A DNA stretch of 64,000 nucleotides from Flavobacterium sp. 5 (GTDB taxonomy: Bacteria > Bacteroidota > Bacteroidia > Flavobacteriales > Flavobacteriaceae), in NCBI RefSeq assembly GCF_002813295.1, contig NZ_PHUE01000001.1, positions 4,216,001-4,280,000 of the forward strand. The letters run 5' to 3'. The translations under genes were made by a program, and so were the position numbers. The notes below the pieces were generated by a model. That model saw only the letters and a program-made list of their open reading frames with translations, did not search any database and was not told where the DNA came from. How positions within the stretch are numbered: position 1 is the stretch's first letter; each line of letters starts with the position of its first letter. This document shows positions 10,549-31,800 of this stretch, in pieces.

Positions 10549-10592
10549 AAGAAGTTGATAGTTAATGGTTGATAGTTGAAAGTCCAAAGGGA

Positions 10593-10634
10593 AAAATTCG
10601 TAATTCAAAATTCGTAATTCAAAATTCGTAAATT
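10593..10634. repeat. 14-bp tandem repeat, three copies
   Basis: AAAATTCGTAATTC occurs at 10593-10606 and 10607-10620, and AAAATTCGTAAATT at 10621-10634, directly before the permease ATG. Sequence of this kind is common as low-complexity spacer in flavobacterial operons. It may affect leader length by slippage. Confidence 0.85.
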
Positions 10635-10637
10635 AAA

Positions 10638-11744: not shown

Positions 11745-12865
11745 TGATGCTGAAATTTTTATTAGAGAAGGAATTCAAACAGATTCTGAGAAATTCATTC
11801 CTGCCAAGAATGATAATAGGCTATCCTCTCATGGCTATTTTGGTATTTCCATTGGCAGCCAATTTTGAGGTAAAGAATATTAATCTTTGTGTTGTTGATA
11901 ATGATCATAGTACGTATTCGAGACAATTGATTCAGAAGATTAGTTCGGGCGGGTATTTTAAATTGACCGAAGTTGCTACAGATTATAATCAGGGATTAAA
12001 AAGCATTGAAACCGATAAATCCGATATTGTTTTAGAGATACCATCACATTTTGAAAGAGACTTAGTGCGCAATCAAAATGCTAAATTGATGATTGCTGCC
12101 AATGCTGTTAACGGGACTAAAGGTGGTCTGGGGAGCGCTTATTTGTCAAGTGTTGTTGGAGATTTTTCGAATCAAGTTAGGAGTCAATGGATAAATCCTT
12201 CGCAAATGACATCTGGAAATAGTCCTATTATTGAGATTGTTCCTCAAAATAAATTCAACCCACATCTTAGTTATAGCATTTTTATGGTTCCTGCTTTGAT
12301 GGTAATGATACTTACGATGTTATGCGGTTTCCTTCCTGCATTAAATATAGTTGGGGAAAAGGAAAGTGGTACTATGGAACAAATAAATGTAACACCAGTA
12401 ACCAAAGGAATATTCATTTTAGCAAAATTAATACCTTATTGGATTATTGGGTTCATCGTGTTAACCATCAGTTTCGGAGTCGCCTATTTTGCTTATGGTT
12501 TAATACCTGCGGGAAATTTAGGAATCATTTATCTATTTGCAGCAATCTATATTTTGGGTGTTTCTGGTTTTGGATTAGTGATATCCAATTACTCCAATAC
12601 CATGCAACAAGCTATGTTTGTGGTGTTCTTCTTTATGCTTATTTTGATATTACTTAGTGGATTGTTTACGCCAGTAGAAAGTATGCCCCAATGGGCTCAA
12701 TTAATGACTACCATAAATCCATTAAAATACTTTATGCAGGTCATGCGTCTTGTTTACTTAAAAGGGAGCGGTATTTCGGAATTGGGCTCTCAACTCATCG
12801 CTCTTCTTAGTTTTGCTGTAGTTTTTAATACTCTGGCTATTTTGAGTTATAAGAAGAGTAATTGA
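11744..12865 (+). CDS. ABC-2 type permease (YbhR-like)
   Basis: 373 residues, same architecture as the preceding permease but clearly divergent. TM1 spans about residues 22-40, then an extracytoplasmic domain, then GEKESGTMEQINVTPV and five TM segments with ILLSGLFTPVESMPQW near the last. The two probably form a heterodimer. Either ATG (11744 or 11747) could start it; overlap with the preceding stop favours the first. It ends the export operon; no strong intrinsic terminator is obvious in the 240 bases that follow. Confidence 0.88.
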   Translation: MMLKFLLEKEFKQILRNSFLPRMIIGYPLMAILVFPLAANFEVKNINLCVVDNDHSTYSRQLIQKISSGGYFKLTEVATDYNQGLKSIETDKSDIVLEIPSHFERDLVRNQNAKLMIAANAVNGTKGGLGSAYLSSVVGDFSNQVRSQWINPSQMTSGNSPIIEIVPQNKFNPHLSYSIFMVPALMVMILTMLCGFLPALNIVGEKESGTMEQINVTPVTKGIFILAKLIPYWIIGFIVLTISFGVAYFAYGLIPAGNLGIIYLFAAIYILGVSGFGLVISNYSNTMQQAMFVVFFFMLILILLSGLFTPVESMPQWAQLMTTINPLKYFMQVMRLVYLKGSGISELGSQLIALLSFAVVFNTLAILSYKKSN

Positions 12866-13011
12866 TGAGGTTTTTTATGAATGAAAGTTGACTAGTATTG
12901 ACTAATTCTCTCAAAGTTAGGAATAACTTTATGATGGTTTATATAGGGGTTGCAGTTATCTGAAACCATTTATTTTTATAATTCAATTTTGAGTTTTTTC
13001 AAATTATTCTA

Positions 13012-13108
13012 CTTTTTTTTCCATTATGCACAAATTTACCAAGTACAAAACCAGCAGCAAATTTAGCCAAATGCCTAAATCTTGTGTAATGGCTATTATA
13101 AGTAGTTT
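13012..13108. repeat. Cassette-type repeat, degraded copy A
   Basis: From the T-run at 13012, CCATTATGCACAAATTTACC, then AAGTACAAAACC, AGCCAAATGCC and CTTGTG match the right two-thirds of copies B and C in order. The right arm is decayed (AAGTAG replaces GGCAGTAG) and the left arm is missing. It abuts the stop codon of the minus-strand gene at 13109, exactly as copies B and C abut theirs. Confidence 0.7.
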
Positions 13109-13723
13109 TTATTTTTCCTCTGCTATTTGTTCAACTAATTGAAGTCTTTTTACAATTGATTTTTTGGTTAAAATAGTTCCGGGAGACAAGACTGCATTGG
13201 CACCAATTTTTGAGTCATCACCAACGAGTGAACCAAACTTTTCAGAATTAGTTTCAATTACTTGAGAATTATAAAGAACTGAAATTTTCTTATGTTCTCT
13301 TTCGTTATAATGATTGGCAGATATTGACCCCGCTTCAAAATTGACGTTTCTACCAATAATGCTATTTCCTATGTAATTAAAATGGGCGATTGCTGTGTTT
13401 GAAAAAATAATGCTGTTTTTTATTTCACAACCGGGGCCAATTTTAACATTCCTATCTAAATAAATACCTTCTCTGAAATATGCATTAGCACCGATATGAC
13501 AATTTTCTGAAATGATCGCAGGCTTTTTTATAGTGACTCCATTTTCGATAACAGCTGATTTATGAATTGCAACGTTATCTGTAATTAGATAATCTTCATT
13601 CAAGTTTGAGATTGCGCTTTCAATTATGCTTTTTAAATCATTTGTAATATTCCAAGGTTGCATATTTTCCATATTTTTAAATATTCTGGAAAAGTCTTTA
13701 ATATAATCATCAATATTTATCAT
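13109..13723 (-). CDS. Left-handed beta-helix (hexapeptide) transferase-like protein
   Basis: 204 residues. After about 45 helical residues, hexapeptide repeats run from about residue 48 to 180: DNVAIHKSAVIENGVTIKKPAIISENCHIG, then GPGCEIKNSIIFSNTAIAHFNYIGNSIIG. The IAHFNYIGNSIIG segment resembles the GlmU C-terminal acetyltransferase region, where the His is catalytic. There is no N-terminal nucleotidyltransferase domain, so it is shorter than GlmU. It may be a sugar-nucleotide or small-molecule O/N-acyltransferase; the substrate is unknown. It is a lone gene, co-oriented with its two neighbours and separated from them by copies of the same repeat. Confidence 0.75.
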   Translation of the reverse strand: MINIDDYIKDFSRIFKNMENMQPWNITNDLKSIIESAISNLNEDYLITDNVAIHKSAVIENGVTIKKPAIISENCHIGANAYFREGIYLDRNVKIGPGCEIKNSIIFSNTAIAHFNYIGNSIIGRNVNFEAGSISANHYNEREHKKISVLYNSQVIETNSEKFGSLVGDDSKIGANAVLSPGTILTKKSIVKRLQLVEQIAEEK

Positions 13724-13895
13724 CTAAAAATTTATTTATGGATTCATAATTTTCTTACCACTTTTTTTGTCTCTGCGCTAAAATTGCCTATAATGTCAGT
13801 CTGTGAATAAACTCAAAAATACCCTCTGAGAATCGACTGTATGAGATTTTTCTCCGACAGGTCCGAATAGTTTCTTTTTTTTGATTTGTTTTCAC

Positions 13896-14030
13896 AGCCT
13901 GACGTTCTGGCGCTACAAGAGGTTTGGGATTAAAGAGGCGAGTTTTTTCTATTAGGTACAAATTTTACAAGTACAAAACCATCTTTAAATTCCGCCAAAT
14001 GCCCAAATATCTTGTAACGGTTGGCAGTAG
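13896..14030. repeat. Cassette-type palindromic repeat, copy B
   Basis: About 135 bp. The inner arms CGCTACAAGAGGTTTGGG (13911-13928) and, at the other end, CCCAAATATCTTGTAACGG (14002-14020) pair as an imperfect stem. The right outer arm GTTGGCAGTAG is intact, whereas the left outer arm is altered to GCCTGACG. It lies 5 bases from the stop of the next minus-strand gene (14036) and about 170 bases upstream of the start of the previous one. Confidence 0.85.
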
Positions 14031-14035
14031 TTTTT

Positions 14036-14596
14036 TTAGTTTTCAATTTTTACGATAATCTTTTTTTCAAAATTTCTATTATCAGAAGTGCTACAATTAA
14101 ACGTAACTTCATAATCTTCAGACGTAAATACACTTTCGCTTTTAAATTCTTGACTAAATAAAATTACTTTATTAGCGCCTTCGCTAAGACCTTCATATAT
14201 TTTTATTTGATTTTTTATTTCATCAATTTCAAATAAATTTTGATTTGCATTTATAATCAAATTTTTATATTTAAAAGGACGGTCAAATTTTAATGAATAT
14301 GTGTCTTCTAATATATCATTATCAATAGATTGACCTCCTGAAAAGGCATAGCATTTTTCTGACAACCCTAAATCAAGACTTGCCATAGACTGGTATTTAT
14401 ATCCAATTATAAAAATTATATCATTTTTTAATACGTCTGTTTTTGTAAAATAATTATAATTTTTTTCATTATTTAGGTTACTACCTGTTGCTCCGCTAAA
14501 TTCAATATCTGAAATGTAGTCATGCTCATTCAAACAACTTTGATTTACGACAATTAAAAAAAGATAAATTCCTATTATTTTAAGTATTTTTTTCAC
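14036..14596 (-). CDS. Putative lipoprotein of unknown function
   Basis: 186 residues if begun at the GTG at 14594-14596. That start gives a clean lipoprotein signal: KKILKIIGIYLFLIVVNQSC, cysteine at about residue 21. An in-frame TTG further upstream (14621-14623) would place the N-terminus inside the repeat arm and is unlikely. The mature part is polar, probably beta-rich, with one pair of cysteines far apart (EKCYAF and TFNCST). I recognise no family. It is the middle gene of the repeat-separated array, with repeat copy C immediately upstream and copy B 5 bases downstream. Confidence 0.6.
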   Translation of the reverse strand: MKKILKIIGIYLFLIVVNQSCLNEHDYISDIEFSGATGSNLNNEKNYNYFTKTDVLKNDIIFIIGYKYQSMASLDLGLSEKCYAFSGGQSIDNDILEDTYSLKFDRPFKYKNLIINANQNLFEIDEIKNQIKIYEGLSEGANKVILFSQEFKSESVFTSEDYEVTFNCSTSDNRNFEKKIIVKIEN

Positions 14597-16880: not shown

Positions 16881-18470
16881 ATGTTAAAACGTAAAGACTC
16901 TTCAGATGAAATAAATTTACCTAATTCAGCCGCCAATTTGGTTGAAAAAGCAAAACAAATGTTATTTGGTGCCACTGAAGAAGAAGACAAAGGCATATTA
17001 GGAAATCTGATGGACAAATATTCAAAAGTCCAAATAGAAGATCCAATTAGACCTTTTTATGAGAATGACCTACCGAAAATAGCTAGCAATGTTGATTATG
17101 GTATTTTACAAGTATTAGAGGGTACTTGGGTTAGCTATAATAATGACAGTCAGAAAAAAATGATTGGAACTGGTATACATACTACCATTATGCCTTCTCC
17201 AGGTACAAATTCTGGAGGTATTCCTGGGAAATATAGTTTCGTATGTGAAGAGTATATAGAAAAATTGACTTTTGATCTAGTTCCAGGAGGAGTTCGCAAT
17301 CGCGGTGGAGGTAATGAACAATTTTGTGGAGCTGTAAAATACGATCAAAGTATTAAGAGCGTAAACAGTGTAGAGGGTCAAACAGATCTAAAATACACTT
17401 CAATTCACGAGGAGAACGGTATGTATTTATGGCTTAGTGATGTATTTAATTATGCTGCTACTGAAAAATCTATTGAAGAAGACCGCGGTATACACGCTAT
17501 ATCACCAGATAACCCGAATAAAGATTTATATAAAAGCGGCTATCAGGATGAGACTCTTTTTCATGTTTTAAATGATGAGGGTAAAAAAGAATATGTAACT
17601 CTGGAAAATTTGAATGGACGACCATATTTGGATATTATTGCAGCCAAAGAACTTAAAAAAGGAGCAGGACAGACAGGCCCTTATTTTATACCAGATTATT
17701 CTATTTCCAGAAGCGGAGTAATTCCTCATGGAAGTACTATAACTTTATTAGGAGATTTGATTCCAAGTGCTCCAAAACCAGGAGATTCAGAACCAAAGCA
17801 TTCCCCTTATTTAGTTGATGGTTCGCCACAATTTCCAGAAGGTGATGCAGCTTGGAAGTATGATCATCTTTCAATTTCGAGAACAATGGGAGGAGCTGGT
17901 GCAAACGAAACCAATAAAGCTATAAATCTTGATAAACCTGCACCTGCCTGGGTGCATGAAAAACTTGATGATGTAAATGATCCTGGAGAAAATAAAATCT
18001 ATACACAAAGAATACTTGCTCATGATTTATATCCGTATTCGGTAAGACCAGATTTAAGACTTCGTGATTCCATCAAAGGAGAAAATATAAAAAATCACGT
18101 ACTTATTCAGATGTCATCCAAAAATAAAACTGGGGCACAAGGAGGGATATTAAATGTTCCATTTGTAAATCGTTTTGTACCTACAGTCGAAATGAATATG
18201 CGAATGTGGATTGAAACAGTTGTAGAGGACGGAAGGGAAATTCTTCAGTTGCAATACGAACAAATTATATTTTTCGAATTTCATTTTGGAGATGACGGAG
18301 GTACTACGAGCTGGCCACACATACAGATTAATACACTCCGAAAAATAGAAGATGTTCCTGCCGATCAAAGAGCTTTGGCAGAAGAGCAATTCGGTATTAA
18401 AAAAACGGATGGAAGTTATAAACCTGAATCTTCTGCGGCAGCTTCAGGATGTCCTTACAACAAAGGATAA
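16881..18470 (+). CDS. Uncharacterised protein, first gene of the LodA-like cluster
   Basis: 529 residues, no signal peptide or membrane segment. I do not recognise the family. Visible features are LQVLEGTWVSYN followed by GTGIHTTIMPSPGT (the GTW-type strand start recalls lipocalin-like beta-barrels, a weak clue), a VPGGVRNRGGGNEQFCG segment, Gly/Pro-rich loops in the middle, and a C-terminal half with HDLYPYSVRPDLRLRDSI and NRFVPTVEMNMRMWIETV. The extreme C-terminus ends SGCPYNKG. It precedes the ferritin-like and LodA-like genes on the same strand, but a hairpin-T tract follows its stop, so downstream expression may be attenuated or separately promoted. Role possibly substrate, scaffold or accessory subunit. 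Confidence 0.6.
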   Translation: MLKRKDSSDEINLPNSAANLVEKAKQMLFGATEEEDKGILGNLMDKYSKVQIEDPIRPFYENDLPKIASNVDYGILQVLEGTWVSYNNDSQKKMIGTGIHTTIMPSPGTNSGGIPGKYSFVCEEYIEKLTFDLVPGGVRNRGGGNEQFCGAVKYDQSIKSVNSVEGQTDLKYTSIHEENGMYLWLSDVFNYAATEKSIEEDRGIHAISPDNPNKDLYKSGYQDETLFHVLNDEGKKEYVTLENLNGRPYLDIIAAKELKKGAGQTGPYFIPDYSISRSGVIPHGSTITLLGDLIPSAPKPGDSEPKHSPYLVDGSPQFPEGDAAWKYDHLSISRTMGGAGANETNKAINLDKPAPAWVHEKLDDVNDPGENKIYTQRILAHDLYPYSVRPDLRLRDSIKGENIKNHVLIQMSSKNKTGAQGGILNVPFVNRFVPTVEMNMRMWIETVVEDGREILQLQYEQIIFFEFHFGDDGGTTSWPHIQINTLRKIEDVPADQRALAEEQFGIKKTDGSYKPESSAAASGCPYNKG

Positions 18471-18477
18471 AATGTTT

Positions 18478-18525
18478 AAAAACTCCATAGTGTCTTTATA
18501 TAAAGAGATACTGTGGAGTTTTTTG
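18478..18525 (+). terminator. Hairpin terminator/attenuator inside the cluster
   Basis: AAACTCCATAGT near 18480 pairs with ACTGTGGAGTTT (one G-T pair), further extended by CTTTA/TAAAG, and runs into T6 at about 18520. It lies between the first and second genes of the cluster. Confidence 0.7.
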
Positions 18526-18647
18526 CATCTAAAGATTACAGTTTTTATAGATTTTAAAAGCATACTATTTATAAATACTAATAGTCATTGTTTTTCAAGG
18601 CTATAATCTTTGAATGATTAAATAGAAATTTAACTAAACAATATATT

Positions 18648-20150
18648 ATGAATTTCAACCAGAAAAGAGACCATTTTATTTTACCAATATTAGAATGGGC
18701 AAAAAGTAATAATGAGCTAAAAGACACCTCTTCAAAAAAAATGTTTATGGCTGATAATAGTGTTATAAGTACTTATGACACGACAGAAAGTGAAAGTAAA
18801 AAACCATTTAAGGTACCTTCTCAATTTAATGGGAAAGACTACATTACGATGTTACTTCAAATAGATGCCGAAATTGAGCAAGGACTGATGTTGCAGTATT
18901 TATATTCTGCTTATAGTATGGGTGGGGCACAAATTCCAAAAGAGCATCAAGAAAAAGTACATACTTGGCAAAACATAATTTTGGGTATTGCAAAAGAAGA
19001 AATGGGGCATTTTATTTCGGTTCAAAATGTATTGAAAGTGATTGGAGCGCCCTTAAATTTTGGAAGAGAAAGTTATCCTTGGGATAGTCCTTTTTATCCT
19101 TTTCCTTTTACTTTAGAAAAATTTTCTATGAACTCACTTGCTAAGTATGTTTATGCGGAGGCTCCTGCTGATTGGCTGGAAAGTGATGATCCTTTGGCAA
19201 AAGAAATTTTAAAGAATGTAGATTCAACCGTATCAGATCCGCATACAGTTGGGGCCTTATTTATAGTATTGCTTCAATTAATCAAAGATCCTGAGGTAAT
19301 ATCTGATGAAACCTTTCAAGCTGCAACGTATAATTGCCAAGCTAAGTTTGATGAATGGGGAAGAGGATATACTGGAGGTAACAGAGGAAGTGATGGAAAA
19401 AATATTTATACCAAAAGCCCCGATGTATTGGTGGCACCATTATTATCTCGTGATGATGCTTATAATGCATTGTCAGAAATAGCAGAGCAAGGGGAAGGTT
19501 TAGATACAAAAGAGGATGCTACGCCATCTCATTTTGAACGGTTTTTGCATATCTACAAAGAATACAAAGAGATATTGGAAGTAAACGAATATTTTGAGCC
19601 TTCTCGTAATGTAGCTACGAATCCTTATGTGGGCTCTAAAAATGATGCAGCAGTGGATTCCAATTCTACTATTCCATCAATAGAAGATGGAGCTGATGAA
19701 ATTACAAATCCAGAAGCAATACTTTGGGCAAATTTATGTGATATCCGTTATCGATTATTACTTAATTTCCTAAATCATAGTTTTTTATTGGATAATGGTT
19801 TTAACAATTCAGGGAATTCTTCTCCTCGTGGTATGATCATCAATTCTGCCTTCGGTGAAATGTATAATTTAAGAAGTTTGGCGACTATCTTAGTTCAAAC
19901 TCCTACTATTGAAGATGGTAAAATAATGGCTGGGCCACCATTTACACTCCCTTATACATTTGATTTGCCTTTTGGAGAACACAATCGATGGAGATTACAT
20001 CAAGATCTTCTGGAAGCATCAAATAACATCATAAAAGAGTTAAAGCACTTTAAAAACCAACCACATATTCAATATTTGAATGGATTACAAGAAGCCGATC
20101 AAAAATTACTACTTGCAATTGCGAACTTAACACAAGATAATCTGGTTTAG
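18648..20150 (+). CDS. VioB/RebD-type ferritin-like domain protein
   Basis: 500 residues. A ferritin-like domain of the iminophenyl-pyruvate dimer synthase type (as in VioB/StaD/RebD C-terminal regions) covers about residues 65-260. The metal-ligand-like helices are TMLLQIDAEIEQGLMLQYLY and ILGIAKEEMGHFISVQNVL. The C-terminal half (NLCDIRYRLLLNFLNHSF, then MYNLRSLATILVQTP and PFTLPYTFDLPFGEHNRWRLHQDLLEAS) belongs to the same family region. It is soluble and predicted to bind iron. In violacein-type pathways the domain couples oxidised amino-acid imines. Beside an amino-acid-oxidase-like gene, an imine-handling role is plausible but unproven. Confidence 0.75.
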   Translation: MNFNQKRDHFILPILEWAKSNNELKDTSSKKMFMADNSVISTYDTTESESKKPFKVPSQFNGKDYITMLLQIDAEIEQGLMLQYLYSAYSMGGAQIPKEHQEKVHTWQNIILGIAKEEMGHFISVQNVLKVIGAPLNFGRESYPWDSPFYPFPFTLEKFSMNSLAKYVYAEAPADWLESDDPLAKEILKNVDSTVSDPHTVGALFIVLLQLIKDPEVISDETFQAATYNCQAKFDEWGRGYTGGNRGSDGKNIYTKSPDVLVAPLLSRDDAYNALSEIAEQGEGLDTKEDATPSHFERFLHIYKEYKEILEVNEYFEPSRNVATNPYVGSKNDAAVDSNSTIPSIEDGADEITNPEAILWANLCDIRYRLLLNFLNHSFLLDNGFNNSGNSSPRGMIINSAFGEMYNLRSLATILVQTPTIEDGKIMAGPPFTLPYTFDLPFGEHNRWRLHQDLLEASNNIIKELKHFKNQPHIQYLNGLQEADQKLLLAIANLTQDNLV

Positions 20151-20192
20151 CTTTAAATTAATTCAATTAAAATATTTAAAAAATACTACGAT

Positions 20193-22484
20193 ATGAAAAT
20201 TATAGAATTACGAATTCTTCCGCCTATTGCAATTGGCAGATTAGGAGAATCAAATGAACCAATGGCTGCGTATGATCTTCAATTATCAAAAGAAAAACCA
20301 CTTGACTATAGAGAGATTACTCCACAAACGACTTTATCAGTAGATCCATACTCAGGAGAAATTAAAGCTCATGTGCCTACAAATATAAAATTCAAAGAAG
20401 TTACAAGTCTAGCTGATAGAAAAGGAAAGATACATCCGGTTTCTCCTTTTTTGGAAGTGTTTGCTATTACAGACCAAAATCCGAAGGATTTAGTACCTCT
20501 TACAGAAGAACTACTTAAGCAATGTCAATTAAGTTTAGAAGATATCAGCTGGGATGTAAATGTAGCCAACATAAAAATATTCAGAAGAACTGGGGATGTA
20601 AATGATAAAATGACAGCAACAATCAAAGGAATTAATTCACATGAATTAAAACCATTGTTAGCTGATTGTGAAAATTTTCTCCCAAACAAAAAACTACCGC
20701 TGGGTTCTATTCAGTATGTAAAACCGACAGCAGAATTTCCAGAATTAAGATTGCGATATACACCTGCTGGAGGAAAAGTGTATGGTTCAGATTTATACAG
20801 AAAAACAGGTCAAGGTGATAATGATATAGAGCTAGATCCGACTTTTAAAAGTGAAGATCAAATACTGTATGATAAAAACAAAGGAAAATGGCGTGATTAC
20901 AAAGAAGGTAGCACTGCTAATATATTCTACACTGCTCCGGCACAAATTTTTGCGGGCTATTCATATACTGATGATAAACAAGAAAGTTGGCAGGTAAGCT
21001 GGGGATATGTTGATGATGAATGTGATGGTTTTGTAACTGTTAAACTAAAAGTTTCAGGTGAAAAGACATTAACAGCCAAAGCACATATCAGTGCTGGACC
21101 TCCTTCTTTCGCTCCAGATACTTTGCCAATTCGTGTAGTATCAGATGAGTTAGAACAAATTATATTGGGTACGGATATAGAAGGAGAAGTAAGTATAGAA
21201 GAAGCCGAAGAAATTATTCGCAGAGCTTTTGAGACCATTCGTTTGATGAATACAACGATTATGAATGGTAATAGTTATGAAGGGAAACAGAATGTTGCCA
21301 GCACTATGGTACGTCAAAATACAAATGATTTTGGACGTTTTTTTGAACCTATTATGGCAACCTCTCTTGTTGATAATCTTGCTTTGCAAGTATTACATGA
21401 AAGAGTGTTTAATGGTTTAAGTTCTGGGGCATCGCCTTGGTTTGGTGATTTATTACGTAAACCTACAGAAATAGGAGATTTATCAAGTAAAGCACTTCGA
21501 AAAATGCCTGCATTAATGCGTGGTGCCGATGGTAGGTCACTTACTTTTACCTATCGACAAATCAATATGATTGTAAAGGCAGCAGCTACTTCTATGTTTA
21601 AGGATATTAATCCGGATACGTTGCCAGTATCGTATGGCTCGCCTTTAGTTGCCAATAATTTAACAGCGCAATTACATTATAGAGGAACAGGAAATCCTAT
21701 TGCAGTTTTACCAAGAACAGCAATATCAAATTGCTTTCCTGGACTGGAATTTGATTTTAGAAATCTTTGGAGAAGAGCATTTAATGGAATTGTCCTTATT
21801 GAAAATAATAATTATGTACTGGAATGCGATGAAATTTATAAATTAAAAGGTCATCGATTGGTTGCTATAGAACGTAAACCTACAATGGTACAAACCTTTG
21901 GACCTGTATTTCCAGAGGGACCAAGTGTACCCTTAAAAACAGATTCGAATCCAAACGGTGTTTCATTTATGGAATGGTCGAACTCTATGGTTGAAGTTTT
22001 GCAAAAACAAGGACAGGAAGTAATATGCCATTTTACAGCTGAGGAATCAACAGAAGAAGTAGTGGTTGATTTAAAGGAATTGGATAATCCGAAAAAGTAC
22101 ACTGCAGTAAAATTAACAGTTAATAAAATATTTGATGGCAATAGTGCTGCATTTTCAGATACTATTTTACAACCCGGTGAATTGACTCAAGGTCTTTGTG
22201 CTCCTTGGCAAAATGATTACCGTGAATGTTCTTGTTACTATTGGGCAGCCAGCAGACCTGATTTTGTAAATATCGTTCCAGATGAAAATGGTTTGAGTAC
22301 AGGGGATTTATGGATGTCAAAAAAACGAACAGGATCTTACATCCCGGATGATTGGCAAAACTCAAGATTGATTTCCTACCAAGATCTCTTTGAAAATTGG
22401 CAAGGAGAACTCAATTTTATTATTGAAGGAAAAGATGCAATAGAAAGTAAGCCAGTAAAACCTAAATCAACAAAAAAGAAATGA
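20193..22484 (+). CDS. LodA/GoxA-like CTQ-dependent amino-acid oxidase family protein
   Basis: 763 residues, cytoplasmic-looking. The N-terminal IIELRILPPIAIGRLGES is the LodA-family opening. The family hallmark SNCFPGLEFDFRNLWRR begins at about residue 512 (C514 is a candidate for the Cys of cysteine tryptophylquinone, CTQ). A MEWSNSMVEVL segment follows (W595, a candidate Trp), and near the C-terminus GLCAPWQNDYRECSCYYW and AASRPDFVN (C679, C681, W684). Known members (LodA lysine 6-oxidase, GoxA glycine oxidase) release H2O2 and can be antibacterial. Substrate and the exact CTQ pair cannot be read here. Its ATGA overlap with the radical SAM gene indicates coupling. Confidence 0.8.
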   Translation: MKIIELRILPPIAIGRLGESNEPMAAYDLQLSKEKPLDYREITPQTTLSVDPYSGEIKAHVPTNIKFKEVTSLADRKGKIHPVSPFLEVFAITDQNPKDLVPLTEELLKQCQLSLEDISWDVNVANIKIFRRTGDVNDKMTATIKGINSHELKPLLADCENFLPNKKLPLGSIQYVKPTAEFPELRLRYTPAGGKVYGSDLYRKTGQGDNDIELDPTFKSEDQILYDKNKGKWRDYKEGSTANIFYTAPAQIFAGYSYTDDKQESWQVSWGYVDDECDGFVTVKLKVSGEKTLTAKAHISAGPPSFAPDTLPIRVVSDELEQIILGTDIEGEVSIEEAEEIIRRAFETIRLMNTTIMNGNSYEGKQNVASTMVRQNTNDFGRFFEPIMATSLVDNLALQVLHERVFNGLSSGASPWFGDLLRKPTEIGDLSSKALRKMPALMRGADGRSLTFTYRQINMIVKAAATSMFKDINPDTLPVSYGSPLVANNLTAQLHYRGTGNPIAVLPRTAISNCFPGLEFDFRNLWRRAFNGIVLIENNNYVLECDEIYKLKGHRLVAIERKPTMVQTFGPVFPEGPSVPLKTDSNPNGVSFMEWSNSMVEVLQKQGQEVICHFTAEESTEEVVVDLKELDNPKKYTAVKLTVNKIFDGNSAAFSDTILQPGELTQGLCAPWQNDYRECSCYYWAASRPDFVNIVPDENGLSTGDLWMSKKRTGSYIPDDWQNSRLISYQDLFENWQGELNFIIEGKDAIESKPVKPKSTKKK

Positions 22485-23866
22485 TAGCGGCTACTGAAAG
22501 TTTCATAGAGGAGGAAAAAAATGTGCCAATTGCAACGAAGTTGGCACAAATGATTGTCCCCCAATCAAGACCACGTTCTGCTACAGCACATTTGATAAAA
22601 GGAGGTCAATCGACTCAGATTTTTATTCCAAATGGAAGCAGACTTTATACTATTTCTCAGGAAGTAGAGCAAAGAATAACTTCTTTAATGGATCAAAAGA
22701 ATGAAAAAGGTCTGCAAAATGAGTTAGTTCTTTTGGGACTGGACGCTCCGGAATATATTACGGACGAGCCATTACAAAGTCCTCGATTGTATGCTTTATC
22801 ATTAGCAATAGCTCAAAAGTGCAATATGGGTTGTACGTATTGCTATGCAGATCAGGGTGATTTTGGAGGACCTACAAAAAATATGTCTTTGGAAACCGCT
22901 TTTAAGGCTATCGATTTATTGTTAAAAGATTGCCCCGAAGGTGGAAAAGCACAACTTACCTTCCTGGGAGGAGAACCACTTATTAATAGACAAGCGATTA
23001 GAGAAGCAACCATTTATGCAGAAACAATCGCAAAAAGCAAAAACATACAAGTCAGTTATTCTATTACTACAAACGGAACTTTGGTTACAGAAAGTGATGC
23101 AATCTTTTTTGAAGAATATGGCTTTTCGGTAACCATTAGTTTGGACGGAATAGGTAAAGATCATGATATTAATCGCCCAATGAAGGGAGGTAAAGGAAGT
23201 TATGATACCATTATAAAAAATATTCAGCCCTTATTGTCTTTGCAAAAAAAAATGCAGGTATCTGCGAGAGTAACAGTAACTCCTGAAAATACTAACCTTC
23301 CGGCAGTTTTGGATGAATTTATTCAGATGGGGTTTCATGGGGTGGGTTTTTCACCTTTGTTAAGATCCAGTAATGGACAAAACGAAATGAATAAAGAGCA
23401 GCTGTCTGTTATGTTAGAAAACATGATTGCTTGCGGACTTAATTTTGAGAAAAATGTATTAGCAGGAAAACGATATCCTTTTTTGAATATGGTTAATGCA
23501 TTGAAAGAAATTTCCAAAGGAACCCATAGACCTTATCCATGCGGTGCAGGTGCAGGTTACATGGGCGTATCTGCGGATGAAGATTTATTTGCGTGTCATC
23601 GTTTTGTAAACGAAGATGTTGGAAAAATGGGCGATTTAAATAATGGCATACAAGCTGATCTTCAAAACAATTGGCTTGCTTCACGACATGTAAATAAACA
23701 AGACCCCTGTTCACAATGTTGGGCTCGTTATCTTTGTGGAGGCGGATGTCATCATGAAGTAATTGAAAAAGGAAGACCGGCCTGTGATTATATAAGATCA
23801 TGGTTGTTCTATACCATTCAAGCCAATGAAAGATTATCACGATTAAAACCCAATTGGAATAATTAA
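22481..23866 (+). CDS. Radical SAM/SPASM peptide maturase, QhpD-like
   Basis: 461 residues. The radical SAM motif CNMGCTYCY is at about residues 114-122 (CxxxCxxC), with FLGGEP, SITTNGT and SLDG core motifs after it. A SPASM/twitch-type C-terminal cysteine set follows: PCGAGAG, FACHRF, CSQCWARYLCGGGCHHEV, CDYIR. The YLCGGGCHHE ending is typical of maturases of the QhpD/PeaB/anSME group that modify peptides or proteins. QhpD makes thioether crosslinks in the CTQ subunit of quinohemoprotein amine dehydrogenase. Placed between a LodA-like gene and a LodB/QhpG-like flavoprotein, its likely substrate is the LodA-like protein. It overlaps the upstream gene by 4 bases. Confidence 0.88.
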   Translation: MIAATESFIEEEKNVPIATKLAQMIVPQSRPRSATAHLIKGGQSTQIFIPNGSRLYTISQEVEQRITSLMDQKNEKGLQNELVLLGLDAPEYITDEPLQSPRLYALSLAIAQKCNMGCTYCYADQGDFGGPTKNMSLETAFKAIDLLLKDCPEGGKAQLTFLGGEPLINRQAIREATIYAETIAKSKNIQVSYSITTNGTLVTESDAIFFEEYGFSVTISLDGIGKDHDINRPMKGGKGSYDTIIKNIQPLLSLQKKMQVSARVTVTPENTNLPAVLDEFIQMGFHGVGFSPLLRSSNGQNEMNKEQLSVMLENMIACGLNFEKNVLAGKRYPFLNMVNALKEISKGTHRPYPCGAGAGYMGVSADEDLFACHRFVNEDVGKMGDLNNGIQADLQNNWLASRHVNKQDPCSQCWARYLCGGGCHHEVIEKGRPACDYIRSWLFYTIQANERLSRLKPNWNN

Positions 23867-23872
23867 TTGTCG

Positions 23873-25363
23873 ATGAAAACATTCCCTGAAATTTTTGATG
23901 TGTTTATTCTAGGAGCTGGCCCTGCTGGATTATGTGCTGCGATACGACTATTGGATATGGGATATTCGGTAGGTATGTTGGAGCAGGAGCAATTTCCAAG
24001 ACCACAAATAGGGGAGTCACTTTCCCCCGGGATTCACAATATTTTTGAATATTTAAATGCGGATCATCTTTTAGAAGATTCAATGTATTTAAAAAATATT
24101 TCCGCTAAGGTAATTTGGGAAGATAAGGAGAATATTTATCATCGTCCGAGTCAAAACAATGGAGGGATAATTGTTGATAGAAGTAAGCTCGATCATGAAT
24201 TACTTAAGTTCGCTGTTTCTAAAGGTTTATATTTAATACAGCCTGGGAAATTAAAACATTCCATAAGCTCCAAAAACATATGGATATTAGATATAATAAA
24301 GGATTCGACCGAAATTAAAATCAATTCAAAAATTGTATTAGACGCACGGGGTCGCAAAGGGTCACTTTTAAATGAAAGAGTTCCAATTGCTCCATCGGCT
24401 GTTGCAATGTGGACTCATGTCGATAATTCTATTTATAAAGAAGCATGTATTGAAGCTGTTGATAATGGTTGGTTATGGGGATCACCGGTTTGTGGAAATC
24501 GCTATCGGATTATGACTTTTACAGACCCAATCACACTAAAAAAGAATAAACAGTCACATCTTTTAGATGTAATGAGTAAAACAAAATTATTTTCTCCTTT
24601 TCTAAACAAAATTGAGAGTAGTTTTATAGAAACTTGCTCCGTTACTTCGTTTGTTAATCAGGTACCTTGGAATAATCAGTTTATAAAAATAGGGGAAGCT
24701 GCTTTTACATTAGACCCACTTTCTTCTACTGGTGTAGAAAAAGCAATGCGCTTTTCTTTGCAGGTGGCTATTGCCATAAATACCTATTTGAAAGATCCAG
24801 ATTCACAACACCCAAAGGAGTTCTATGAAGAAAAATTGATTGAGTCGGTTGTAAATCATGCACATTGGACAGCAGATTATTATAGTCAAGCATGGGCTTG
24901 TTCTGAAGAGTCAGAATTCTGGATGAAAAGAGCCAACTTTCAACTTGATATCTCTAAAAACAAAACCGATTTCACACTGAAATTAGAAAAGGAGTTTAAT
25001 AAAGAAAGGACTGTATTTGAAAAAAAACAAGTAGAACCAATCCCTGTTGATTTTGTTTTATACAGACTTTGGGATGAGGTAATTACTGTTTCTTCTAATA
25101 TTACGTTTAAAACTGTTTATGCAATTGATAATGATTGTATAATACTAAAACAAGCCCTAATTCACCCTAATTTGGAGAGACCTTTAGTGTATCTGGATCA
25201 AGTAGAATTGTTTTTGCTTTTGAAAAACATGAATGGTAAAGTAGTTTCAAGCATTCTAGATCATTTGAATAATTATATGCCAATAGAAAAGGCAAAAAAA
25301 ATACTTGTATTTCTTTTGTCAAATCAGCTGCTTACGGTAAGCCAAAAAGAAATAATAGTGTAA
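23873..25363 (+). CDS. LodB/QhpG-like FAD-dependent modifying flavoprotein
   Basis: 496 residues from the ATG at 23873, 6 bases after the radical SAM stop (an in-frame TTG at 23867 is less likely). The N-terminal dinucleotide motif is FILGAGPAGLCAAIRL, and FPRPQIGESLSPG follows, as in tryptophan-halogenase-like monooxygenases. GEAAFTLDPLSSTGVEKAMRFS is the family FAD motif as seen in LodB and QhpG. The halogenase WxWxIP motif is not evident, so halogenation is unlikely. LodB is required to form CTQ in LodA, and QhpG hydroxylates the CTQ-precursor Trp in amine dehydrogenase. An equivalent role for the upstream LodA-like protein is the natural inference. The last about 120 residues are less conserved. 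Ends the cluster; a terminator follows. Confidence 0.85.
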   Translation: MKTFPEIFDVFILGAGPAGLCAAIRLLDMGYSVGMLEQEQFPRPQIGESLSPGIHNIFEYLNADHLLEDSMYLKNISAKVIWEDKENIYHRPSQNNGGIIVDRSKLDHELLKFAVSKGLYLIQPGKLKHSISSKNIWILDIIKDSTEIKINSKIVLDARGRKGSLLNERVPIAPSAVAMWTHVDNSIYKEACIEAVDNGWLWGSPVCGNRYRIMTFTDPITLKKNKQSHLLDVMSKTKLFSPFLNKIESSFIETCSVTSFVNQVPWNNQFIKIGEAAFTLDPLSSTGVEKAMRFSLQVAIAINTYLKDPDSQHPKEFYEEKLIESVVNHAHWTADYYSQAWACSEESEFWMKRANFQLDISKNKTDFTLKLEKEFNKERTVFEKKQVEPIPVDFVLYRLWDEVITVSSNITFKTVYAIDNDCIILKQALIHPNLERPLVYLDQVELFLLLKNMNGKVVSSILDHLNNYMPIEKAKKILVFLLSNQLLTVSQKEIIV

Positions 25364-26386: not shown

Positions 26387-26704
26387 TTGAAACTTACAAA
26401 CACCATATTGTCAATTATAATTCTGATTCTTTCCTGTATGCCTTGTGCAGATAAGGAACAAGATGTATCGTTTGAAAAAATGACTATAAACAATAGTTCA
26501 AAGCAACATCACAATAAAGATATTTGCTCCCCTTTATGTGTTTGTAGTTGCTGTGGATGTCAAGGTCACGTTCACAACACTATTTGTTCTTATAATATCT
26601 TTTCGGTTAAAACTATAATTGATAAAAATCTTCCTGAATACAAATCAATTATTACTTCCAATTTCTTCGGGAGTATTTGGCTGCCCCCACAAATTATTGC
26701 TTAA
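26387..26704 (+). CDS. Cys/His-rich small periplasmic protein (DUF6660-like), copy 1
   Basis: 105 residues from a TTG start, chosen because the paralogue at 27024 uses the same TTG in the same context and because it gives a signal peptide (KLTNTILSIIILILSCMPCA). The lipobox-like LSC and the MPC leave the processing site uncertain. The mature part has a metal-binding look: KQHHNKDICSPLCVCSCCGCQGH. The conserved end reads GSIWLPPQI. Proteins of this type (DUF6660-like) sit beside CusA/CzcA pumps in Bacteroidota. A role in periplasmic metal binding or delivery is inferred from composition and neighbours. Confidence 0.65.
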   Translation: MKLTNTILSIIILILSCMPCADKEQDVSFEKMTINNSSKQHHNKDICSPLCVCSCCGCQGHVHNTICSYNIFSVKTIIDKNLPEYKSIITSNFFGSIWLPPQIIA

Positions 26705-26796
26705 TTTTTTTGATGATTAAAAGAATACAATTCTACTTGATAGAGTTAGTTACAAAGTTTTCTTTATTTAAATTAATTACAGTTATAGATATAATA

Positions 26797-26964
26797 ATGG
26801 CAAAGCAAAAAACAAAAAGACCGAACAACCCTAAACCTAAATCCAAAAAGCCAATAACGGTTTACACTGTTATTCGTACTATAATGATAATACTACTTTT
26901 GTTGCTTTTGTTATTGGGAGTTGCTGCAAAATATTGGTACTACTACAATAAATATTACAAATAA
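26797..26964 (+). CDS. Small single-pass membrane protein
   Basis: 55 residues beginning MAKQKTKRPNNPKPKSKKP, a basic Pro/Lys-rich cytoplasmic head. One strongly hydrophobic segment (about residues 28-44, ten Ile/Leu in a row) and a Tyr-rich tail YWYYYNKYYK follow. The ATG at 26797 is preferred to an upstream in-frame ATG that would overlap the previous gene. No family recognised. Its place between the two Cys/His-rich paralogues suggests a link to the metal-efflux operon. Confidence 0.5.
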   Translation: MAKQKTKRPNNPKPKSKKPITVYTVIRTIMIILLLLLLLLGVAAKYWYYYNKYYK

Positions 26965-27023
26965 TTAATAATCATTATAAATAATTTATTAATTATAAAA
27001 ATAAAAATCATATTTTTACAGTC

Positions 27024-27341
27024 TTGAAATTTACAAACATCATATTGTCAATTATCATCGTAGTACTTTCCTGTATGCCTTGTGCAGACAAGGAACAAGG
27101 CGTTTCGTCTGTAAAAGTAACTATAACCAATAGCTCAAAACAGCACCACGAAAAAGACACCTGTTCTCCTTTGTGCATTTGTAACTGTTGTGGTTGCCAA
27201 GGTTTCGCCTACAATACAATATGCAATTACAATTTTGTTGCCATTAAAAACATAATTGACAAAAAACTGCCTGAATACAAATCAATTCTTACTTCCAATT
27301 TCTACGGAAGCATTTGGCAACCGCCACAAATTAATGCTTAA
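27024..27341 (+). CDS. Cys/His-rich small periplasmic protein (DUF6660-like), copy 2
   Basis: 105 residues, TTG start, a close paralogue of the protein at 26387: same length, signal peptide, cysteine/histidine block (KQHHEKDTCSPLCICNCCGCQG) and ending (GSIWQPPQI). The two share almost every residue in the metal-like block, suggesting a recent tandem duplication with the small membrane-protein gene between them. It is followed 149 bases later by the RND pump gene. Metal binding is inferred, not shown. Confidence 0.65.
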   Translation: MKFTNIILSIIIVVLSCMPCADKEQGVSSVKVTITNSSKQHHEKDTCSPLCICNCCGCQGFAYNTICNYNFVAIKNIIDKKLPEYKSILTSNFYGSIWQPPQINA

Positions 27342-27489: not shown

Positions 27490-30400
27490 GTGTTAAACAG
27501 AATCATTCATTTTAGTATAAATAATAAATTCATCATTGGTTTGATGACTTTATTCTTAATCATTTGGGGGGTTTGGAGTGCTTCCAAATTACCTATTGAT
27601 GCAGTACCGGATATTACAAACAATCAGGTACAAATTATTACGCTTTGCCCCACTTTGGCAGGGCAGGAAGTGGAACAATTGGTAACTTTCCCAATAGAAC
27701 AAAGTATTGCAAATCTTCCCGATTTAGAAGAAACCCGAAGTATTTCACGCTTTGGTTTATCAGTAATCACAGTCGTTTTTGATGATGATGTCAATATTTA
27801 TTTTGCACGACAACTTATTAGTGAACGCCTCAAAGAAGCGATTAGTCAAATACCACAAGGAATAGGAACACCCGAATTAGGTCCCGTTAGTACAGGACTT
27901 GGCGAAGTGTACCAATATATTTTACATCCAAAAAAAGGAAGTGAAAATAAATATTCTGCAATGGATTTGCGATCTATGCAAGATTGGATAGTAGCAAGAC
28001 AACTCAACGGAACTCCCGGAATTGCTGAAATAAATAGTTTTGGTGGTAAATTAAAGCAATATGAAGTTGGCGTGAACCCAAATCGCTTAAAAGCAATGGG
28101 AGTAACAATTCCTGATATTTTTAATGCTTTAGAAAAAAACAATCAAAATACAGGCGGTGCTTACATTGACAAAAAACCAAGTGCTTATTTTATTCGTGGT
28201 GTTGGTCTGGTTACTTCTTTAGAAGACGTAAGAAATATTGTTGTGAAGAGCAACCCAAATAGTGTTCCTATTTTTATTAAAGACGTTGCTGATGTCAAGT
28301 TTGGAAGTGCAGTGCGTTATGGAGCAATGACTTATAACGGGAAAGTAGATGCAGTTGGTGGTATTGTAATGATGCTAAAAGGTGCAAACAGTAATGAAGT
28401 CGTACAAAGGATAAAAGACAAAATGATTGTCATACAAAAATCATTACCAGATGATGTTGTAGTTGAACCATTTATTGACCGAAGCACCTTTGTTAACCGT
28501 GCCATTTCTACCGTTGAAAAAAATCTGATTGAAGGTGCATTAATTGTAATTTTTGTATTGGTTTTATTTCTAGGAAATCTTCGTGCGGGACTTATCGTAG
28601 CGTCTGCTATACCTCTTTCTATGTTGTTTGCTTTGGGATTGATGAAAGTTTTTGGAGTAAGTGCAAATCTGATGAGTTTAGGAGCCATAGATTTTGGTCT
28701 AATTGTAGATGGTGCCGTAATTATCGTAGAAGCTTCCCTCTATTTTTTAGAACACAATAAAACTAAGGTGAAACTGACACAACCACAAATGGATCACGCT
28801 GTAGAATATAGTGCTAAAAAAATGATGAGCAGTGCAGCTTTTGGCCAAATCATTATTATGATCGTTTATTTCCCAATTCTATCTTTGGTGGGAATTGAAG
28901 GAAAAATGTTTGGGCCAATGGCTAAAACAGTTTCGTTTGCCATTATTGGAGCAATGATACTTTCATTGACCTATATTCCTATGATGAGTGCCCTGTTTTT
29001 ACCTAAGCTTATCAGTCATAAAAAGACATTTTCTGATAAGATGATGGACTTTTTGTATAAAAAATACGAGCCTCTTTTGGTAAAGGTTATTGAGATAAAA
29101 TACAAAATAGTTGGAATTACTGTTGCATTGCTTTTAGTTACCTTTTTTATTTTTAGCAAAATGGGTGGAGAGTTTATCCCAAATTTAGCGGAAGGAGATT
29201 ATGCGTTTGAATTTAAAATGCCTCTCGAAACTTCTTTATCCCAAAGTATTGAAACCTCAATGCAAGGCGCAAGAATTGTAAAACAATTTGACGAAGTAAA
29301 AATTGTAGTGGGAAAAACTGGAGCAGGCGAAGTGCCTACTGATCCTATGCCTCCTGGAGCAACCGATTTAATGATTATTCTGAAACCGCAAGACGAATGG
29401 AAATCAGGTAGAACTTATGATGAACTAGGTGATGCAATAGAAGAAAAATTAAGTGTGATACCCGGTGTTTTTATCGAAAAAAGTCAACCGATTCAAATGC
29501 GTTTCAATGAATTAATGACTGGAATCAAACAAGATGTCGCTATAAAAATATTTGGAGAAAACTTGGACAGCCTTTCCGTATATGCAAAAAAAGTCGAAAA
29601 TGTGATTGTAAATGTAAAAGGGGTTTCATCTCCTCAAGTAGAACAAGTAGATGGTTTGCCACAAATCAATATAGAATATGACCGTTTGCGAATTGCTAAT
29701 TATGGTCTAAATGTAGAAGACATAAATAGTATTGTAAGTACTGCTTTTGCAGGAAAAGCTGCAGGTGTAGTTTACGAAAACGAGCGAAAATTTGATTTAG
29801 TGGTGCGGTTGGACAGTACATCAAGAAGAAGTATTGAGGACGTGAATAATTTATTGATACCGACACCTTCAGGAAATCAAATACCATTATCACAAGTGGC
29901 AAAAGTTGATTTTAAATTAGGCCCTGCGCAAATTAGTAGAGAAGCTGGAAAACGTAGAATCGTTATTGGTTTCAATATACAGGATAGAGATGTACAAAGT
30001 GTTGTAAAAGAAATTCAAGACAAATTAGCAACAAAAGTAAAATTACCATCTGGTTATTATTTTACTTATGGAGGAACATTTGAGAACTTACAAAAAGCGT
30101 CTAATCGATTGATGATTGCAGTTCCTATTTCCCTATTATTGATTTTTATGCTTTTGTACTTTACATTCAATTCTATGAAACAAGCCAGTTTAATATTTTC
30201 TGCAATTCCAATGAGTGCAATTGGAGGAGTATTCGCATTAATCCTTCGCGGAATGCCTTTTAGTATTTCAGCAGGAATAGGTTTTATTGCATTGTTTGGA
30301 GTAGCTGTATTGAATGGAATTGTACTTATAGGTACATTCAACCAACTCGAAAAAGAGGGCTGGGATGACGTTATCAAACGCGTTATTGAAGGAACAAAAA

Positions 30401-31800
30401 TCAGACTGCGCCCCGTTTTAATGACGGCTACCGTTGCCTCATTAGGTTTCTTACCAATGGCAATGTCACACAGTGCAGGTGCCGAGGTGCAAAAACCATT
30501 AGCAACTGTAGTAATTGGCGGACTGCTCTCAGCAACATTTTTGACTTTATTTGTGTTGCCTTTACTATATATCATATTCAATACAAAAATTAAAATAAAA
30601 GGAAAATCGATAACAACCATTTTAGTTGTCGGACTGTTTCTTTCATTCAGCAATGGTCAGGCACAATCACGCAAATCTATCGATGAAGTCTTGAATTTGG
30701 GTCTAAAGGATAATTTGCAATACAATATCAATCAGTCACAAATAACAAAAAACCAGCTTTTGATAAAAGGAAATAAGGAGTTTCCTAAAACTGGCATATT
30801 TGTCGAGAACGAAGATCTTCGCCCTTCGGATAAAACCGGTATTTGGAAAATTGGTTTACAACAAGCTTTCTATATGCCGCAAGTAAACCAAGCCAAGAAG
30901 AATTACTATAGTGAGCAAACCAAGTACTACGAGGTTAACAAAGAAGTAATCAATACAGAGCTGAAAAAAAACATCCGTTCTGTTTATTACCAATTATGGT
31001 ATTTGCAAGACAAGGCAGCTTTATATCAGCAATTAGACACTATTTATGCAGGCTTACTAAAAACGACCACCATAAAAGTAAAAACTGGAGAAAGCGCTGG
31101 TATTGAGAAAATTTCAGCAAACGTGAAGTTGAAAGAAATTGAAACAAACATCACGCAGCTTCAAAAAGAAATGGTAGTGCAACAGCAAGTACTAATGCAA
31201 TTATTAAATAGCTCAGAAGCCATTTTGCCTCTTTCAAAATCTTTAGAAAAGTTGGAATATGGTTTGCAGAATTCAACCGAAAATCATCCAAGTCTTCTGT
31301 TATTGCAACAAAACATAGCGATTGCCAATAGTGAAATTGCTATTCAAAAAAGCAATAATTTACCTGAATTTTCCGGTCGTATTTTTTCACAGAAATTATA
31401 TGGTGTAGATGACCCGTATAGTGGTTTTTCATTTTCAACATTATTCCCAATATTCGGAAGCGGTGCCAATCATAATAAAATAAAAGCCGCCAGAACCGAA
31501 AAGGAAGTACAAGAACAACAACTGCAATACAAAACGCAAATACTTAAATCTGACCTGACTCAACGTCAAACCGAAGTGGAAAAAAGCTTATCTGGTTTGC
31601 AATTTTATGAAACTTTGGGTTTGCAGCAAGCTGATGAAATTATCAAAGCCGCTAACCAATCCTACCGAGCTGGAGAAACAAGTTATGCTGATTTCTCATT
31701 GTATTTGAGTCAAGCCATCGAAATAAGGAAAAATTATTTAGACAATCTAAATGCCTACAACCACGCCATAATTGAATTCAATTATTTCACAAATAAATAA
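27490..31800 (+). CDS. CusA/CzcA heavy-metal RND pump fused to a CzcC-like outer membrane factor
   Basis: 1436 residues from a GTG start. Residues 1 to about 1035 are a full HME-RND proton-driven pump: VWSASKLPIDAVPDITNNQV near the start, TM4 motif DFGLIVDGAV with D401 and D407 (proton relay), and 12 TM segments. Residues about 1060-1436 are an outer-membrane efflux (TolC/CzcC) domain. Between them lies an internal signal-peptide-like segment, KSITTILVVGLFLSFSNGQA (1039-1058), with a GxA cleavage pattern. Fusions of this type are known in Bacteroidota. Signal peptidase could split the product so each half reaches its own membrane. The adaptor gene follows at once. Likely substrates are Cu+/Ag+ or Zn2+/Co2+/Cd2+; which is not certain. 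Confidence 0.9.
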   Translation: MLNRIIHFSINNKFIIGLMTLFLIIWGVWSASKLPIDAVPDITNNQVQIITLCPTLAGQEVEQLVTFPIEQSIANLPDLEETRSISRFGLSVITVVFDDDVNIYFARQLISERLKEAISQIPQGIGTPELGPVSTGLGEVYQYILHPKKGSENKYSAMDLRSMQDWIVARQLNGTPGIAEINSFGGKLKQYEVGVNPNRLKAMGVTIPDIFNALEKNNQNTGGAYIDKKPSAYFIRGVGLVTSLEDVRNIVVKSNPNSVPIFIKDVADVKFGSAVRYGAMTYNGKVDAVGGIVMMLKGANSNEVVQRIKDKMIVIQKSLPDDVVVEPFIDRSTFVNRAISTVEKNLIEGALIVIFVLVLFLGNLRAGLIVASAIPLSMLFALGLMKVFGVSANLMSLGAIDFGLIVDGAVIIVEASLYFLEHNKTKVKLTQPQMDHAVEYSAKKMMSSAAFGQIIIMIVYFPILSLVGIEGKMFGPMAKTVSFAIIGAMILSLTYIPMMSALFLPKLISHKKTFSDKMMDFLYKKYEPLLVKVIEIKYKIVGITVALLLVTFFIFSKMGGEFIPNLAEGDYAFEFKMPLETSLSQSIETSMQGARIVKQFDEVKIVVGKTGAGEVPTDPMPPGATDLMIILKPQDEWKSGRTYDELGDAIEEKLSVIPGVFIEKSQPIQMRFNELMTGIKQDVAIKIFGENLDSLSVYAKKVENVIVNVKGVSSPQVEQVDGLPQINIEYDRLRIANYGLNVEDINSIVSTAFAGKAAGVVYENERKFDLVVRLDSTSRRSIEDVNNLLIPTPSGNQIPLSQVAKVDFKLGPAQISREAGKRRIVIGFNIQDRDVQSVVKEIQDKLATKVKLPSGYYFTYGGTFENLQKASNRLMIAVPISLLLIFMLLYFTFNSMKQASLIFSAIPMSAIGGVFALILRGMPFSISAGIGFIALFGVAVLNGIVLIGTFNQLEKEGWDDVIKRVIEGTKIRLRPVLMTATVASLGFLPMAMSHSAGAEVQKPLATVVIGGLLSATFLTLFVLPLLYIIFNTKIKIKGKSITTILVVGLFLSFSNGQAQSRKSIDEVLNLGLKDNLQYNINQSQITKNQLLIKGNKEFPKTGIFVENEDLRPSDKTGIWKIGLQQAFYMPQVNQAKKNYYSEQTKYYEVNKEVINTELKKNIRSVYYQLWYLQDKAALYQQLDTIYAGLLKTTTIKVKTGESAGIEKISANVKLKEIETNITQLQKEMVVQQQVLMQLLNSSEAILPLSKSLEKLEYGLQNSTENHPSLLLLQQNIAIANSEIAIQKSNNLPEFSGRIFSQKLYGVDDPYSGFSFSTLFPIFGSGANHNKIKAARTEKEVQEQQLQYKTQILKSDLTQRQTEVEKSLSGLQFYETLGLQQADEIIKAANQSYRAGETSYADFSLYLSQAIEIRKNYLDNLNAYNHAIIEFNYFTNK

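Follow-up and report, generated by a model that had tools for sequence, protein, structure and literature searches.

How is a protein of the LodA/GoxA fold matured when its gene lies beside both a flavoprotein gene and a radical S-adenosylmethionine (SAM) gene? The question is raised by five genes at positions 16881-25363 (+ strand) of a 64,000-nt stretch of Flavobacterium sp. 5 (NZ_PHUE01000001.1, assembly GCF_002813295.1), the whole of which we call the window. LodA/GoxA systems have a partner of the LodB/GoxB type and are not known to need a radical SAM enzyme, whereas here a radical SAM gene is adjacent and the flavoprotein appears to be of the QhpG type. We consider it probable that the cluster encodes a cysteine tryptophylquinone (CTQ)-dependent amine or amino-acid oxidase on a LodA/GoxA fold, matured in the style of quinohaemoprotein amine dehydrogenase (QHNDH) by QhpD/QhpG-type chemistry and working with a ferritin-like iron protein. 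What the analysis shows is how the genes are linked, the fold, and which residues are conserved and at what spacing relative to QhpC; the chemistry and the substrate are inferred. All five open reading frames (ORFs) of an earlier reading of this DNA, the original prediction, were found in place on the + strand, and its motifs SNCFPGLEFDFRNLWRR (with C514), CNMGCTYC and DPLSSTGVEKA occur as written. Its interpretation held in part: a LodA scaffold with QhpD/QhpG-type maturases is supported, and CTQ formation from C514/W595 is not. The features are as follows.

16881-18470, + strand: FMP-type haem peroxidase gene, 529 aa (NF040571 and NF040572)
18648-20150, + strand: ferritin-like gene, 500 aa, with PF12902 at residues 71-303 and a second four-helix bundle at about 350-500
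20193-22484, + strand: LodA/GoxA-fold protein, presumed CTQ oxidase, one chain in the window, 763 aa
21732-21749, + strand: C514-F-P-G-L-E519, candidate for the first thioether pair, corresponding to QhpC Cys7/Glu16
22194-22262, + strand: L668 to D690, stretch holding the quinone site (candidate CTQ C679/W684) and the candidate thioether cross-links C669/D675 and C681/D690
22481-23866, + strand: QhpD-like radical SAM/SPASM maturase gene, 461 aa (TIGR03906)
22820-22843, + strand: CNMGCTYC, radical SAM 4Fe-4S site, residues 114-121, kept in all 81 aligned sequences
23540-23785, + strand: SPASM region, C354 to C435
23867-25363, + strand: QhpG-type flavin adenine dinucleotide (FAD) monooxygenase gene, 498 aa from a TTG start (NF049967 and tree)

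The radical SAM ORF overlaps the LodA-like ORF by 4 nt, and an alternative in-frame ATG start for the flavoprotein, at 23873, lies 6 nt past the radical SAM stop.

Using 15 aligned quinone-half sequences as the query, we scanned 84,980 species, each represented by one genome, and confirmed 200 related stretches, the best 80 of which were kept for all counts of 80 loci; linkage was scored as presence within 4 kb. The neighbourhood survey proposed in the original prediction showed the radical SAM gene linked in 79/80 loci, the flavoprotein in 79/80 and the ferritin-like gene in 76/80. The exception for both maturases is the acidobacterial locus L092, where the radical SAM gene (307-1599) lies on the same contig about 5.6 kb upstream of the ferritin-like gene, the rest of the cluster is at 7222-10798, and the flavoprotein had no match in the available locus sequence. 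The ferritin-like gene was missed in L099, L101 and L103, where the contigs stop close to the LodA-like gene, and in L051, where the first half of the LodA-like protein went unmatched as well. The FMP peroxidase is an optional member, found in 10/80 loci. The usual order (ferritin-like, LodA-like, radical SAM, flavoprotein) recurs across seven phyla: Bacteroidota (38 loci), Pseudomonadota (33), Acidobacteriota (2), Planctomycetota (2), Myxococcota (2), Verrucomicrobiota (1) and Gemmatimonadota (1), with one locus unplaced. The cluster is real and recurs across genomes. On the strength of this order and these linkage counts, we rejected the idea of chance neighbours. Closer to home, the LodA-like protein is rare: it was found in 1/199 genomes of a family sample and 1/395 of a phylum sample, in both cases the window's own genome, and in 4/101 of a genus sample, own genome counted; relatives include F. 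araucananum (L030) and Flavobacterium sp. KMS (L034). This patchy yet wide occurrence suggests horizontal transfer.

When 72,556 plasmid records were searched in translation, 20 matched the LodA-like protein. The window radical SAM matched 66 of the plasmid records and, consistent with the expectation that it keeps LodA-like neighbours, the 19 best among the matches listed all carry the LodA-like gene (19/19); the next tier is annotated QhpD. We rejected a stray maturase of ribosomally synthesized and post-translationally modified peptides, given that the closest plasmid matches coincide with the LodA-like records. The twentieth LodA-like record, an Azospirillum plasmid, has a shortened radical SAM gene adjoining a transposase; at L026:8977-12483 an N-half gene, the shortened radical SAM gene and an IS3 transposase make up an interrupted cluster.

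Judged from called ORFs, the LodA-like protein is encoded by a single gene in 47/80 loci and by two genes in 33/80, among which three are doubtful (L086 is broken, L101 begins at a contig end and L051 lacks the first half). Bacteroidota have 37 fused and one split (L086), Pseudomonadota 6 fused and 27 split. The break falls near residues 470-490, so that every quinone-site residue sits on the second chain, which in most loci with a clear start is about 260-300 residues long. Plasmids of Streptomyces, Nostoc, Rhizobium and Microvirga carry a second branch, more remote from the window, that combines an N-half gene, a radical SAM gene and a quinone half fused to a ferritin-like portion. These fusions were identified by matches at L015:11930-13819 (by Pfam also), L025:8962-10857 and L027:12002-13735, and by annotation at L016:9962-11758 and L023:11938-13692; at L025:6016-7650 the N-half, too, ends in a fused ferritin-like domain. 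Short QhpG-like flavoproteins occur in three of the five loci (L015, L023, L025), and the window flavoprotein as query gave no match in L016 and L027. A classical LodA gene lies a few kb from a radical-SAM-type cluster in five loci (L011, L019, L032, L036, L098), for example in L011 with the classical gene at 448-2400 and the cluster at 7522-14263.

Structural alignment of the modelled 763-aa protein gave a LodA/GoxA fold over the whole chain, at 14-18% identity to LodA/GoxA. Family scores fall under the cut-offs of both Pfam (LodA_C 23.3 vs 25, LodA_N 19 vs 26.3) and NCBIfam (GoxA 25.4 vs 750, LodA 22.7 vs 600), and a PDB search with the single sequence had no match at E 0.001. In the PDB profile alignment LodA C516 aligns with C679, which places the quinone pair most plausibly at C679/W684 and not at C514; C514 was accordingly rejected as the CTQ cysteine. 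All 80 loci have C669, W672, D675, C679, C681, Y683, W684 and D690, and C514 and E519 are present in 79/79 readable loci; because the retrieval patterns of the species scan sat inside the L668-D690 stretch, residue counts over the 80 loci are partly circular. We also compared 16 sequences found by plain similarity; one of them, L017, probably duplicates locus L030. C669, C679, C681, W684 and D690, as well as D675, are kept in 16/16, and the quinone-site stretch is invariant in 55 sequences. L014:10394-11377 and L020:9249-11303 have no C514 equivalent and keep the remaining signature. Among 11 classical LodA/GoxA-type proteins the D675 and C679 sites are kept in 11/11, and cysteine is found at the C669, C681 and C514 sites in 0/11; the D690 site is Asp in all cluster members vs 3/11. 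The classical LodA-type protein of Paraburkholderia caribensis (L152:3989-7399) has a short CTQ loop, CNTAWWPIARPD, nearer QhpC and the cluster family than the other ten.

What might the extra cysteines do? According to the 2021 QhpG study (PMC7876137), QhpC has a 28-residue leader and three Cys-to-Asp/Glu thioethers in all, including Cys41-Asp49; Cys37/Trp43 are the CTQ precursors, and Asp33 is the counterpart of GoxA Asp678. A QhpC model gave one weak match, under its cut-off, in 33 cluster-bearing genomes and none in 143 genomes of the class of G685, the latter search made without a positive control; for this reason QhpC sequences were taken from five QHNDH operons in plasmid records. The remaining thioether pairs we take to be Cys7-Glu16 and Cys27-Asp33. 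With the leader counted, Cys7/Glu16 corresponds to C514/E519, Cys27/Asp33 to C669/D675, Cys37/Trp43 to C679/W684 and Cys41/Asp49 to C681/D690, and QhpC shows the same residue order at nearly the same spacing as the window stretch. C669/D675, C679/W684 and C681/D690 match the QhpC pattern; C514/E519 matches only in kind, the window reading NCFPGLE ... LCAPWQNDYRECSCYYWAASRPD and the first QhpC motif of L112 reading CTTSFDPGWE. The extra conserved cysteines and acids (C669/D675, C681/D690 and, less strictly, C514/E519) fit the QhpC thioether signature.

QhpD (TIGR03906) is the best family of the window radical SAM at 294.9 bits, and across 81 sequences the CxxxCxxC motif and seven SPASM cysteines of this enzyme are kept at 98-100%. 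A quick tree of 39 sequences places the 25 taken from the family in one clade (97), with the second branch (92) and QhpD (100) separate. Five classical LodA/GoxA plasmid loci have a flavoprotein and no radical SAM match in the available 4 kb flanks. The flavoprotein, originally described as LodB/QhpG-like, seems to be of the latter type: it just exceeds the NF049967 (QhpG) cut-off (251.3 bits vs 240) and scores 134.4 with LodB. In a quick tree of 44 sequences, 20 family members and 5 QhpG group together at 91, apart from 11 LodB-type proteins (two of these, L114 and L115, score under the LodB cut-off); within that group the window family stands apart from the 5 QhpG sequences, support for its own unity being low (65), and the single sequence from the second branch was too long to place. 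By score and tree, the flavoprotein groups with QhpG rather than LodB.

VioB/RebD-type ferritin-like proteins stand beside imine-forming oxidases, as in violacein chemistry. The 500-aa protein had been called VioB-type, and the PF12902 domain is indeed present (92.9 bits); the VioB equivalog TIGR04492 is not (45.8 vs 1250). A PDB search with it found nothing at E 1. The 529-residue protein, right in length, had been listed as uncharacterised and proves to be a strong member of NF040571, 'peroxidase, FMP-type' (614.8 bits vs 300), and of NF040572 (287.4 vs 150); its PDB matches were at chance level, and the open-access literature had nothing under the FMP peroxidase names searched. Outside the window, L156:4300-11226 and L157:6778-13560 of the same genome each hold genes for a PF12902 ferritin-like protein and an FMP haem-binding protein, the third gene encoding a GMC oxidase in L156 and a flavin amine oxidase in L157. 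Three oxidase types near such a pair in one genome hint at a wider oxidase module. Downstream of the cluster, the window holds two similar 105-residue cysteine-containing ORFs in tandem (26387-27341), followed by a 1436-residue ORF (27490-31800) that by eye resembles an RND efflux pump.

In the mechanism we propose, the QhpD-like enzyme would form Cys-to-Asp/Glu thioethers, C669-D675 and C681-D690 in all members and C514-E519 in nearly all. The QhpG-type flavoprotein would then hydroxylate W684, which C679 would join to give CTQ. By analogy with LodA/GoxA, the mature enzyme would deaminate a primary amine, yielding an imine or carbonyl and H2O2; with no haem subunit adjacent, O2 is probably the re-oxidant. 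The ferritin-like protein is probably a di-iron enzyme that forms a complex with the oxidase; it may use the H2O2, the imine or both, and the FMP peroxidase, where present, may do likewise.

Several observations weigh against this proposal. On the fold, Foldseek template-modelling scores to GoxA/LodA are low (0.24-0.34), unlike the VIA alignment, and the PDB profile search ranks LodA second (E 0.023), behind an unrelated protein. The CTQ loop is modelled with low confidence (predicted local distance difference test below 50 at 515-518, 669-676 and 686-694), so its geometry is not usable for placing residues. The equivalence of C514 is the softest part, since classical LodA carries its own cysteine seven residues before PG (near PGxE) in 11/11; C514 is present in 14/16 plain-similarity sequences, two members being without it, and it lies 5 residues from E519 vs 9 in QhpC. 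Neither a leader peptide nor a QhpE protease was identified. The radical SAM scores short of the QhpD cut-off (294.9 vs 453 bits), and its tree, with very long outgroup branches, leaves the order of family, second branch and QhpD unsettled. The hhalign probability against QhpC is low both for the quinone half (4.1) and for classical LodA (13.4, at P 0.002).

Some of these points feed an alternative in which CTQ forms as proposed and the radical SAM makes another bond (an alpha-carbon sactionine, a C-C cross-link or other), with C669, C681 and C514 as disulfides or free thiols. The C514 spacing and the sub-threshold score would suit it, as would its further matches to the PapB (270.6 bits), nif11 and SCIFF maturase families; yet QhpD is still the best family, and D675 and D690 are invariant alongside the cysteines, D690 being mostly not Asp in classical LodA. 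We regard it as unlikely. Slightly better placed, and still improbable, is a ferritin-like protein that serves as a maturation factor, for example a di-iron oxygenase for the first Trp hydroxylation, instead of a catalytic partner. Its linkage is nearly as tight as that of both maturases (76/80), and such a gene adjoins fungal lodA-like genes that have a lodB-like gene (PMC4417212). Set against this, the PF12902 and FMP proteins elsewhere in the genome are found with a GMC oxidase or a flavin amine oxidase, neither of which needs CTQ, and in QHNDH both oxygens are added by QhpG alone (PMC7876137).

That the LodA-like protein is a cross-linked structural or toxic protein and no oxidase at all would agree with its 14-18% identity to LodA/GoxA, but the quinone-site residues are invariant and a flavoprotein of the Trp-hydroxylase type is linked in 79/80 loci, which makes this very unlikely. 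We give least credence of all to CTQ from C514 and a nearby Trp such as W595, with the CxC motif in another role. C514 and W595 are both conserved in fused members; LodA C516, however, aligns to C679, and C679, W684 and D675 are kept in 16/16, including the two members without C514. CTQ at C679/W684, flanked by QhpC-like thioethers, remains the reading we prefer.

How does such a system compare with those already known? It resembles LodA/GoxA with LodB/GoxB in overall fold, in the sites of the CTQ Cys, Trp and catalytic Asp, and in the adjacent flavoprotein gene. It differs in scoring under every LodA/GoxA threshold, in adding C669, C681 and D690, in its radical SAM gene, in a flavoprotein of the QhpG rather than LodB type, and in often having two chains. 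With QHNDH (QhpA-QhpG) it shares a QhpD-like radical SAM and a QhpG-type flavoprotein, and around CTQ its Cys, Asp and Trp residues follow one another as in QhpC. In contrast to QHNDH, none of its five genes encodes a di-haem alpha, beta-propeller or small gamma subunit (a QH_gamma search of the own genome, run without a positive control, had no match), its quinone half is about 270-300 residues or lies within a 763-residue chain where QhpC is a 108-residue peptide, and it has a ferritin-like partner. That partner is like VioB/RebD-type proteins in its PF12902 domain and in adjoining an enzyme of the amine-oxidising type, and unlike them in being half as long and below the TIGR04492 cut-off. 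The cluster is real and conserved, and undescribed within the open-access journal literature searched, where no description combined LodA-like proteins with a radical SAM maturase.

LodA/GoxA and QHNDH are thought to have arisen separately, and the 2021 study takes tryptophylquinone cofactors to suggest convergent evolution in different proteins (PMC7876137). Our comparisons suggest that the two may be connected. With hhalign the quinone half matched QhpC on the quinone-site stretch (P 0.01; 0/63 column shuffles as high). The QH_gamma model matched 11/15 members at E up to 1 (best 0.022), and QH_gamma in Pfam one of two classical LodA (E 0.16). There is faint similarity between QHNDH alpha domain IV and the LodA N-terminal domain, which PDB profile searches did not confirm; in the alpha subunit at L112:4158-5696 the last domain starts IxPxxxIARxGG, resembling the LodA N-terminus IxPxxGIARVG, weakly so by profile and structure. 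Each of these links is weak taken singly; added to maturases of the QhpD-like and QhpG type, they make common descent of the cluster with QHNDH a possibility that merits a test rather than a result, the profile scores behind it being weak. A bolder scheme, to which we give perhaps one chance in three, holds that the CTQ sites of LodA and QHNDH are not convergent and that the radical-SAM-cross-linked, often two-chain LodA is a living intermediate: the quinone half would have separated and shrunk to QhpC with QhpD and QhpG, the N-terminal beta domain would survive as QHNDH alpha domain IV, and the SPASM enzyme would cross-link internal loops of a large oxidase, not a short peptide. A LodA body with a QhpC-like signature and QhpD/QhpG-type maturases makes the question of convergence directly testable. 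If the chemistry holds, the cluster would represent a further route of CTQ maturation, show that radical SAM enzymes can form thioethers in a large enzyme as well as in a short peptide, and allow the role of these thioethers to be studied in a system free of haem.

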